Below, piece by piece: positions 6,304-39,795 of a DNA stretch of 42,629 bases. Source of the stretch: an uncultured Bacteroidota bacterium (GTDB lineage: Bacteria; Bacteroidota; Bacteroidia; Flavobacteriales; Flavobacteriaceae); assembly GCA_902515405.1 (NCBI GenBank), contig CABXUS010000010.1, positions 1 to 42,629 on the forward strand, in the 5' to 3' direction. How positions within the stretch are numbered: position 1 is the stretch's first letter; each line of letters opens with the position of its first letter. Under the pieces are notes generated by a model. The model made no database searches. It saw only the letters and a list, made by a program, of their open reading frames with translations, and was not told the origin of the DNA. The translations under genes were made by a program, and so were the position numbers.

Positions 6304-6307
6304 ATTG

Positions 6308-6393
6308 TACTCGGAGCGGGACTTGAACCCGCACGAACATTACTGCTCATTGGATTTTAAGTCCAACGTGTCTACCAATTCCACCATCCGAGC
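6308..6393 (-). tRNA. tRNA-Leu (anticodon TAA)
   Basis: An 86-nt class II tRNA on the minus strand. The acceptor stem is GCTCGGA/TCCGAGT with a G-U at the end pair and discriminator A, as expected for Leu. The anticodon arm TTGGA-CTTAAAA-TCCAA gives TAA, and the T arm carries the GTTCAAGTC-like loop. A long variable arm is present between the anticodon and T arms. CCA is not encoded (the base run after the discriminator is CAA). Confidence 0.95.
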
Positions 6394-6403
6394 ATTATCT
6401 TCG

Positions 6404-6475
6404 AGCGAAAGACGGGATTTGAACCCGCGACCCTCACCTTGGCAAGGTGATGCTCTACCCCTGAGCTACTTTCGC
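6404..6475 (-). tRNA. tRNA-Gly (anticodon GCC)
   Basis: A 72-nt class I tRNA on the minus strand. Acceptor GCGAAAG pairs with CTTTCGC and the discriminator is T, as usual in bacterial tRNA-Gly. The anticodon arm TCACC-TTGCCAA-GGTGA gives GCC and the T loop GTTCAAATC is standard. CCA is not encoded. It sits 41 bp after the mutS stop and 10 bp before tRNA-Leu; both tRNAs probably share one transcript ending at 6262. Confidence 0.96.
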
Positions 6476-13413: not shown

Positions 13414-14184
13414 ATGAAATCTATTTCTGAATTAAAAAATGAAGCACTTTCAAGCTTAAATGAAAAATGGGGTATTTCTATAGGAGCTGCTCTAGTTTTT
13501 TTTGCAATTAGTATGGCATTAAGTTTAATACCAATAATTGGAAGTTTGGTTCAATTGATTCTTACTGGTGCTTTGTCAGTTGGTGTTGCATATTTTTTTT
13601 TAAAACTTTCTAAATCTGAAAATGTAGACATAGAAGATTTATTTATTGCTTTTAAATCAAAAGATAAATTTCTTGTATCATTATCGAGTTACTTATTAAT
13701 TCTTTTAATTATGGTTCCAATTATTTTACTATTTGGAAGTCTTTGGGTAGCTCTATTCATAGGAGATTTAAATAATATTTTTAATTTATTTCTAGCAGCA
13801 GTTCCTGATACTCCTAGTTTAGGAGCAACTTATCAAATTGATCCATCCCTTTTAAATGAAAATTATTCTCCCATTTTTCAGTCAGGAACAGGAACAATTA
13901 TTGTCGCAGCCATTATATTAATTTTTATTCCTTTGATTATAGTTAGTCTTGGATTATCTCAAGTATTTTTTCTAATTGCAGATGATAAAACAAAATCTGG
14001 AATTGAGGCTTTAAAAACAAGCTGGAACTTAATGAATGGTAAAAAAACTAAATTATTTCTACTTCAATTAAGTTTTTTTGGATGGGTTATTTTAAGTATT
14101 CTTACTCTTTTTATTGGTTTCATTTTTTTATATCCTTACATATATACAACACTATCAAAATTTTATAAAGAATTATATGATTAG
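13414..14184 (+). CDS. DUF975-like integral membrane protein
   Basis: A 256-residue polytopic membrane protein with hydrophobic regions at about 20-62 (two helices), 88-118, 165-193 and 215-247. The N-terminal pattern SISELKNEALSSLNEKWG, the SLIPIIGSLVQLILTGAL segment and the polar DLFIAFKS loop match the DUF975 family. Its function is unknown. The last 8 bp overlap the start of the ABC ATPase gene (ATGATTAG), so it is translationally coupled to the exporter and may be a membrane partner of it or simply the first gene of the operon. The start follows an A-rich leader 39 bp after the tandem duplication. Confidence 0.8.
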   Translation: MKSISELKNEALSSLNEKWGISIGAALVFFAISMALSLIPIIGSLVQLILTGALSVGVAYFFLKLSKSENVDIEDLFIAFKSKDKFLVSLSSYLLILLIMVPIILLFGSLWVALFIGDLNNIFNLFLAAVPDTPSLGATYQIDPSLLNENYSPIFQSGTGTIIVAAIILIFIPLIIVSLGLSQVFFLIADDKTKSGIEALKTSWNLMNGKKTKLFLLQLSFFGWVILSILTLFIGFIFLYPYIYTTLSKFYKELYD

Positions 14185-38312: not shown

Positions 38313-39014
38313 TTACTGAAGCTTAAAAATGATAGGTATACTAAAGGGAACTCTTACCGGCCTACCTCTTTGTTTTCCAGGTGTCATCTGCGGAAGTTTT
38401 CCAATAATTCTAGATGCTTCTTTCTCTAAATTCTTGTCAGGTCCTCTTGTTCTTATTGCTGAAATGGAGCCATCTTTTCCAATAGTAAATTGAACAAAAA
38501 CTCTTCCTTGTATACCCATTTCTTGAGCAATATCAGGGTATCTAAAGTTTTTTCGAATGTGAGCTTGCATCTTATCTTGAAAACACTTTCTTCGTTGAGA
38601 TTTAGGGACTCTCTCACAACCTGGATATAAAGGAACATCTTCGATGATTGCAAATGGAACATCCATATCCATTTCTTCTTCAACAACTTCAACCTCTTCA
38701 ACAATTTCTTCTTGATCAGTTTCAGTTGATTCAATAATTGTTTCTTCGATTTCTTCTTCGTCTTCGACTACTTCAATAATTTCCGGAGCTGGTGGTGGTG
38801 GTGGTGGTGGTGGTGTTTTAAGTTGTTCTGTAATTGGTATTTCTTCATCATCCTCATCATCAACATTTAGAGCGATATAGCCATAACCATCATCATCATA
38901 ATTTTTATATTCAATAGCCCTCCATGAAACAAAAAGCACAATAAATAACCCAATTGCAAAATAGAATGAACTTTTTTTATTTAAATCAACTTTTGGGTTT
39001 TTTTTTGATCTCAT
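38313..39014 (-). CDS. tonB: Energy transducer TonB
   Basis: A 233-residue TonB-family protein that couples the inner membrane proton-motive force (with ExbB/ExbD, not in the window) to TonB-dependent receptors such as the one at 288. One N-terminal helix (about 14-30, SSFYFAIGLFIVLFVSW), then a short acidic stretch (DVDDEDDEE), eight consecutive prolines (about 68-75) and a long Glu/Val-rich linker to residue ~120. The C-terminal TonB domain (about 150-233) has YPDIAQEMGIQGRVFVQFTI and the KLPQMTPGKQRGRPVRVPF signature. The linker is acidic rather than the Pro-Lys type of E. coli, as is common in Bacteroidota. The gene starts 6 bp after the vanZ relic. Confidence 0.93.
   Translation of the reverse strand: MRSKKNPKVDLNKKSSFYFAIGLFIVLFVSWRAIEYKNYDDDGYGYIALNVDDEDDEEIPITEQLKTPPPPPPPPAPEIIEVVEDEEEIEETIIESTETDQEEIVEEVEVVEEEMDMDVPFAIIEDVPLYPGCERVPKSQRRKCFQDKMQAHIRKNFRYPDIAQEMGIQGRVFVQFTIGKDGSISAIRTRGPDKNLEKEASRIIGKLPQMTPGKQRGRPVRVPFSIPIIFKLQ
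38791..38814 (-). repeat. Trinucleotide repeat (ACC)8 encoding polyproline in tonB
   Basis: Eight perfect copies of ACC on the coding (minus) strand encode the proline run of TonB. It is the only clear microsatellite in the window and lies in the linker, where length changes would stay in frame. Confidence 0.9.
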
Positions 39015-39020
39015 TCTCAG

Positions 39021-39370
39021 CTAAAGTAATTTTTTTTTTAAATAGTACAAAATAAATGCTCCAAATAAAACCCAAGTACTATTTGCAACGAAATCTACTA
39101 ATTTAAAAAATCTACTAAATGGAAGTATGTGCTGTAATATCTCAAGAAATAAGCCAAATAAAATAGAATAAACTATAAGTTTGAACATTTTAAGTTTATT
39201 AAATCCAATTTTTAATCCCTATACAATTACGAAAATTGAATATATTATGAAATGTATTAACTTATCTATTTCAAATAAATTAAAACTTGGAAAACCTAAA
39301 TTAGGAACAGGAATTACTTATAATAATATTAATAAAAGAGTGTAATAAATTGGAATTTTTTTTAATAAAA
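39021..39370 (-). pseudogene. VanZ-family membrane protein, decayed
   Basis: The 356-bp gap between gcvH and tonB translates in one unbroken minus-strand frame into a VanZ-like protein: KIPIYYTLLLILL, stop, VIPVPNLGFPSFN then LFEIDKLIHFIIYSIFVIV, stop, GLKIGFNKLKMFKLIVYSI then LFGLFLEILQHILPFSR, FFKLVDFVANSTWVLFGAF and ILYYLKKKLL. The DKLIHF, GLFLEILQ and DFVANSTG-like segments are the hallmark of the family. There are two in-frame stops: TAA (39318-39320) and TAG (39219-39221, in a place where Trp (TGG) is plausible). No ATG start is present. There is no frameshift over ~115 codons, so decay is recent or the stops are sequencing errors. The last part from ATG 39188 is a 55-codon open frame. 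In related genomes a vanZ gene is expected next to gcvH. Confidence 0.85.
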
Positions 39371-39754
39371 TTATTTTCCAATTAAATCAGAATAATCGTT
39401 GTTGTTTAATAGTTGATTAATTTCATTAGGATTTGAAACTTCAACCTTAATTATCCATCCATCATCATATGGAGAATTATTTATTGATTCAGGGCTATCA
39501 TTTAAAGATTCGTTAAACTCAATAATCTTTCCAGACATAGGTAAAAATAAATCTGAAACAGTTTTTACAGCCTCAACTGTTCCAAAAACTTCATCTTTTT
39601 CAAGTGTTTCATTGATTGTATCAACTTCAACATATACAATATCTCCTAATTCAACTTGAGCAAAATCAGTCACACCAACAGTTGCTATATTTCCATCAAG
39701 TTTTACCCATTCATGATCTTTGGTGTACTTTAAATTTTCTTTAATATCCATCAT
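39371..39754 (-). CDS. gcvH: Glycine cleavage system H protein
   Basis: A 127-residue lipoyl-carrier protein that shuttles the aminomethyl group between the P, T and L proteins of glycine cleavage. The lipoylated lysine is K64 in FGTVEAVKTVSDL, and KYTKDHEWVKLDGN (9-22) and the SPYDDGWIIKVEV C-terminal segment are typical. Two adjacent ATG codons (39754 and 39751) could start it. No other glycine cleavage gene is in the window. It lies 41 bp downstream of sprA, an order common in Flavobacteriia, and is followed by the vanZ relic. Confidence 0.96.
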   Translation of the reverse strand: MMDIKENLKYTKDHEWVKLDGNIATVGVTDFAQVELGDIVYVEVDTINETLEKDEVFGTVEAVKTVSDLFLPMSGKIIEFNESLNDSPESINNSPYDDGWIIKVEVSNPNEINQLLNNNDYSDLIGK

Positions 39755-39795
39755 TCTAAAATATAACTTCCTTTAATTAAAAAAAAATATTTTTT

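Follow-up and report, generated by a model that had tools for sequence, protein, structure and literature searches.

The window, by which we mean the whole stretch of 42,629 nucleotides analysed here, is contig C10 in a draft assembly (1.12 Mb, 72% complete) of a marine flavobacterium with a small genome. Open reading frames taken as genes cover 41,272 of its 42,629 bases, and the largest gap between listed frames measures 356 bp, the length given in the preliminary description. Pfam analysis of the window genes revealed the order sprA-gcvH-vanZ-tonB on the minus strand, with the vanZ-like frame occupying this gap. The 3′ part of sprA, which runs off the contig (39,796–42,627), is followed by an intact gcvH (39,371–39,754), a vanZ-like pseudogene extending from just past the gcvH stop to a terminal TAG (39,021–39,371) and an intact tonB-like gene with a TonB_C domain (38,313–39,014); ctaB and cytochrome-oxidase-like genes lie further downstream. 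No RNA families or tRNAs were found in the 356-bp gap. The second-largest gap (261 bp) is mostly taken up by genes for tRNA-Leu and tRNA-Gly (6307–6475). gcvH opens with two successive ATGs (39,749–39,763), of which the second (39,751) is probably the start, as it is in 15 of 16 congeners, the sixteenth being truncated at its 5′ end. A TATTTTAG box situated one base upstream of the first ATG would set the transcript start on the second, giving a leaderless mRNA.

Read on the minus strand from 39,371 to 39,021, the vanZ-like frame contains exactly two internal stops ahead of its terminal TAG at 39,023–39,021. The first, TAA at 39,318–39,320, falls near the end of predicted helix 1, and the second, TAG at 39,219–39,221, falls in predicted helix 2 at a column where all 21 intact relatives in the alignment have Trp. 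Both had been placed correctly in the preliminary description, which nevertheless began the frame at 39,370, one base out of register with the correct 39,371. The frame read through matches Pfam VanZ (PF04892) with an E-value of 9.7e-6 and 26.7 bits, below the curated threshold of 30.1, and it is below the NCBIfam curated cut-off as well. An intact sister, L034, falls one bit short of the NCBIfam cut-off and passes that of Pfam (38.3 versus 30.1 bits); Pfam VanZ matches all 15 intact congeners at E-values up to 0.1. A profile of these 15 orthologues, built with the window copy excluded, matches the window frame at E = 5.5e-35, which rules out a chance match and bears out the VanZ-like identity first proposed. 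The window copy is altered at 2 of 22 columns that are invariant among intact copies; in the same count, three intact copies differ at 1 of 24 columns and twelve at none. The invariant Trp and two invariant Gly residues are changed. A second convincing VanZ was not found in the 72% complete assembly, the next match having an E-value of 0.0137.

Of the genus, 23 genomes were compared, the window's among them, and 17 of these carry the vanZ frame alongside gcvH and tonB. Neither vanZ nor gcvH was matched in the other six, and tonB lies at a contig end in two of these, so that the locus is probably unassembled there. Fifteen of the 17 copies have no internal stop. The only broken copies are those of the window's genome and of G004, with two stops each; G004 carries a TGA and a TAA and has lost one base, none of which is common to the window, and its sister G016 has an open frame. 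By its sequence, this second congener is mid-loss by way of other lesions. The window copy combines disabling lesions with stop-free orthologues at the same place in 15 congeners, and loss of a VanZ gene by nonsense mutation, as originally suggested, is the best reading. In kind it is an ordinary pseudogene: both the family and the operon are already known. A functional VanZ protein is not to be expected in the window's genome, because one stop lies close to the end of helix 1 and the other within helix 2.

The start region (39,348–39,381, minus strand) carries a net gain of one base relative to five sisters. The distance from the position of the TTG start to a pair of conserved Tyr-Tyr codons is 34 nt in the window and 33 nt in G014, G006, G018, G001 and G020, leaving the TTG at 39,381–39,379 out of frame; the earlier statement that the frame is free of frameshifts is thus incorrect. 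It is true that the frame has no start codon, but this is misleading, since 5 of 15 intact congeners (G019, G012, G022, G017 and G016) likewise have none of ATG, GTG and TTG among their first 24 codons. A missing start codon was therefore rejected as a diagnostic lesion. At least 23 of 75 named loci (from the best 80 of 315) have a GTG or TTG that overlaps the gcvH stop by 8 nt. For G012 and G022, neither of which has one of the usual starts, ω is 0.257 and ω = 1 is rejected (p = 0.0058); purifying selection on this pair suggests an unusual start codon, and in some congeners, to judge from the sequences, translation of vanZ seems to begin at a codon outside the set ATG, GTG and TTG. Open vanZ frames without these codons near the start are seen at loci L101, L107, L108, L110 and L098.

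The gene might be intact, and the two stops and the length change mistakes of sequencing or assembly, a reading that we consider improbable. The lesions are read from a single draft assembly, the start region has short runs of A and T, and the rest of the frame looks constrained, so that two stops in it would also fit base errors. Against this, three lesions fall within about 160 nt, whereas 31 neighbouring genes are uninterrupted. From position 13,414 onwards, each of the 31 window genes gives a single unbroken alignment with G014, the nearest congener, that covers at least 94% of the gene; the 12 frames before 13,414 have no counterpart on the G014 stretch compared and lie outside this error control. 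The claim that this is the sole dead gene in the window is, accordingly, supported across those 31 genes. Moreover, a second congener has decayed likewise by different lesions, and entire lineages are without vanZ (see below).

The age of the loss was considered from ω estimates made with internal stops masked, in sets of 17 and 12 taxa. ω is 0.086 on the window branch compared with 0.098 for the background, although synonymous sites on that branch are saturated (length about 4.9) and bound ω only to below about 0.47, so that the estimate shows no more than constraint over the greater part of the branch. ω = 1 on the window branch is rejected, with 2ΔlnL = 7.0 and p = 0.008 for 17 taxa and 2ΔlnL = 5.5 for 12. 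Relaxed selection on the window branch was not seen in these tests; for G004, the branch estimate lies at its limit and is uninformative. In intact sisters, 7–9% of point mutations would make a stop, so that two stops would correspond to tens of neutral changes. Between the window and G014, 95 of 330 sites differ. Because ω is low and neutrality is rejected, the loss in the window's genome looks young. The preliminary description had called the decay young on the grounds that frameshifts were absent, an argument that fails; it is the ω values that support the conclusion, with a force reduced by the saturated synonymous sites.

It is more doubtful still that a functional product is made despite the stops, either by read-through or as a 55-residue protein comprising the last two helices. 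A 55-residue frame from the ATG at 39,188 is indeed open, and the copy keeps K40, H43, E80, Q83, D96 and N100 (alignment numbering). The Met at 39,188, however, has no counterpart in the nearest sisters, and the changes at the Trp invariant in 21 relatives and at two invariant Gly residues argue against a working protein. Window genes use all three stops (28 TAA, 7 TGA and 7 TAG), which makes recoding unlikely.

We favour instead the pseudogene reading, and the intact relatives indicate what would have been lost. A model of the intact L099 protein has four helices (pLDDT 86.4, pTM 0.80) that correspond to the four-helix core of the VanZ (lipocone) fold; a Foldseek search of the PDB with this model gave no matches at E ≤ 0.001. 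D39, K40, H43, D96 and N100 are invariant in 21 proteins. PMC12419801 describes a VanZ-2 lipocone gene in an FCB-group sprA-gcvH-vanZ-tonB operon. The motifs it gives for helices 2 and 4 are RKxxH and DxxxD, respectively, in VanZ-2, and Asn and DxDDxxxN in VanZ-1. The present gene resembles that VanZ-2 gene in its gene order, its small four-helix product and the KxxH of helix 2. The motifs differ in detail: in the 21 proteins we find DKxxH and DxxxN, so that the R and the last D of the VanZ-2 signature are absent. Nor is the VanZ-1 signature present in them, helix 2 having no invariant Asn and helix 4 only DxxxN, although ExxQ in helix 3 is common to VanZ-1 and these proteins. The VanZ of the VanA glycopeptide-resistance cluster (VanZ-1; PMC7146870) belongs to the same Pfam family; unlike it, the gene described here has no resistance genes adjoining in the part of the window examined, and nothing in the present data suggests an antibiotic-related role. 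VanZ proteins are proposed, in PMC12419801, to act on lipid-linked envelope precursors, and the role of the VanZ-like protein of the SprA operon is given there as a prediction only.

Examination of the end of the gene revealed a feature that is new here: in each of the 17 genomes of the genus, including the two with dead copies, the last 10 codons of vanZ are at the same time a promoter-like element of tonB, TTG-N19-TAnnTTAG. In all 17, the tail reads ATT TTG, three codons, AAA AAA AAA TTA, one codon and TAG, corresponding to the peptide pattern I-L-x-x-x-K-K-K-L-x-stop. In the window, a −33-like TTTTG (39,048–39,052, minus strand) lies in the last vanZ codons, and the −7-like box TACTTTAGC (39,020–39,028, minus strand) includes the vanZ terminal stop. 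The primary sigma promoter of Bacteroidota consists of TTTG at −33 and TANNTTTG at −7 (PMC6847099). The TTTTG element matches this consensus, and after a spacer of 19 nt a TAnnTT.G box stands just before tonB; the tonB box TACTTTAG departs from the known promoter in being one base off TANNTTTG, of the form TAnnTTAG(C), and in lying inside a coding frame. PMC9723704 places the −7 box at −12 to −5, and by this placement the tonB transcript would begin near 39,016, leaving a leader of 2 nt.

The tail is conserved: the window and G014 are identical at 33 of 33 of its bases, compared with 205 of 300 in the preceding stretch. Conserved columns among the last 13 show a synonymous diversity of 0.083 (7 columns), compared with 0.390 (19 columns) in the preceding part (permutation p = 0.002, kinship ignored). 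Of the Leu codons, TTG accounts for 11% in the window and for 15% in the rest of the vanZ frames, and TAG terminates 7 of the 42 listed window frames. Among 76 loci (from the best 80 of 315), TAnnTTAGC occurs within 70 nt before tonB in 67, compared with a mean of 1.5 and a maximum of 5 in shuffles, and is missing from 9; with a TTG 17–21 nt upstream it occurs in 44 (shuffles: mean 0.39, maximum 3). The 9 loci without the box speak against a promoter, as do three further counts. The consensus form TAnnTTTG precedes tonB in only 11 of these 76 loci (shuffles: mean 6.1, maximum 13). Across the whole window TAnnTTAGC is not enriched (3 matches versus 7.4 expected), and the TTG-spacer-box arrangement lies within 60 nt upstream of only 3 of 42 window frames, those of tonB, 30053 and 32058. 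The tail of vanZ is, from these patterns, probably kept as a candidate tonB promoter. That the gene died long ago and owes its conservation to regulatory DNA for tonB is scarcely credible: the last 33 bases are identical to those of G014 and the element is kept in both dead copies, but some 100 codons upstream of the tail are open save for two stops and ω on the window branch is well under 1.

Loss of the same gene is not confined to the genus. A tonB-protein scan gave 315 named loci, of whose best 80 we retained the 75 with gcvH and added the window. In these 76, vanZ is open in 54, absent in 19, broken in 2 and unclear in 1. gcvH and tonB are 73–92 nt apart in 16 of the 19 VanZ-less loci, and a second tonB copy stands between them in the other 3; TAnnTTAGC precedes tonB in all 19. 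A quick gcvH+tonB tree of loci from the same best 80, with 23 of 73 inner branches well supported, implies four changes for the absences, two of them forced by well-supported branches, and two separate changes for the broken copies. At locus L175, with 321 nt between gcvH and tonB, no trace of VanZ was found, and it was scored as unclear, outside the absence count. In a family-wide scan (up to 15 candidates scored per genome), 284 of 299 genomes have a vanZ profile match, and among the matches listed frame-breaking stops occur only in the window's genome; G202 was rejected as a broken copy, its single TAA being second-last in the match and taken as the gene's own end. A match is lacking in 8 of 18 genomes of at most 1.6 Mb compared with 7 of 281 larger ones (p = 1.6e-7), a comparison in which sizes were rounded and counted by eye, completeness was uncontrolled and 2 of the 7 do have the gene. 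The scan overstates absence, since G138 and G180, unmatched in it, yet have a VanZ profile match between gcvH and tonB. In G209, G112, G100, G319 and G080, gcvH lies 62–136 nt from tonB between matched ends. In G222 the two are 96 nt apart with no VanZ between, though the scan lists a match in that genome. VanZ-2 is called nearly universal in Bacteroidetes/Chlorobi in PMC12419801; unlike that picture, two species here have a broken gene, and others have none at the locus. A literature search for loss of the vanZ gene found no description among the matches listed.

Overall, we conclude that the window very likely holds a vanZ pseudogene, probably a recent one, in a sprA-gcvH-vanZ-tonB locus, with its neighbours spared, its tail retained as a probable tonB promoter and the gene lost repeatedly in relatives. 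The two nonsense mutations, together with the change of one base in length close to the start, would abolish a predicted four-helix membrane protein. gcvH would be unharmed, being upstream, and tonB is probably driven by its own promoter in the last vanZ codons, so that the gene would be free to die and its tail would not. The same gene was lost several times in relatives, and streamlining or relaxed need may be the cause. With rather less assurance, we lean towards a wider proposal: that the end of vanZ in this genus is −33/−7 promoter DNA yielding a near-leaderless tonB mRNA, that the gene dies while its tail is frozen, that deletions elsewhere leave a like box, and that some congeners start vanZ at codons other than ATG, GTG or TTG. 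If the tail is a promoter, a compact genome has dropped a protein and kept the regulatory DNA inside its gene.

sprA lies beside gcvH in 17 of the 19 VanZ-less named loci (from the best 80 of 315), and was not seen there in L161 and L169. SprA frames of 2,340–2,481 residues are present in G004, G080, G100, G209 and G319; SprA is split in two pieces in G112, and searches in G126 and G231 gave no match. Species caught mid-loss and VanZ-less lineages that mostly keep SprA amount to natural knock-outs, which suggest that VanZ is not needed for keeping SprA and permit a comparative search for genes lost along with vanZ. Tandem additional tonB-like copies occur at L119, L130, L138, L132, L145, L150 and L175. 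Locus L106, from a record titled Candidatus Neomarinimicrobiota (SAT24), groups with the window's genus, and the record is mislabelled or mixed.
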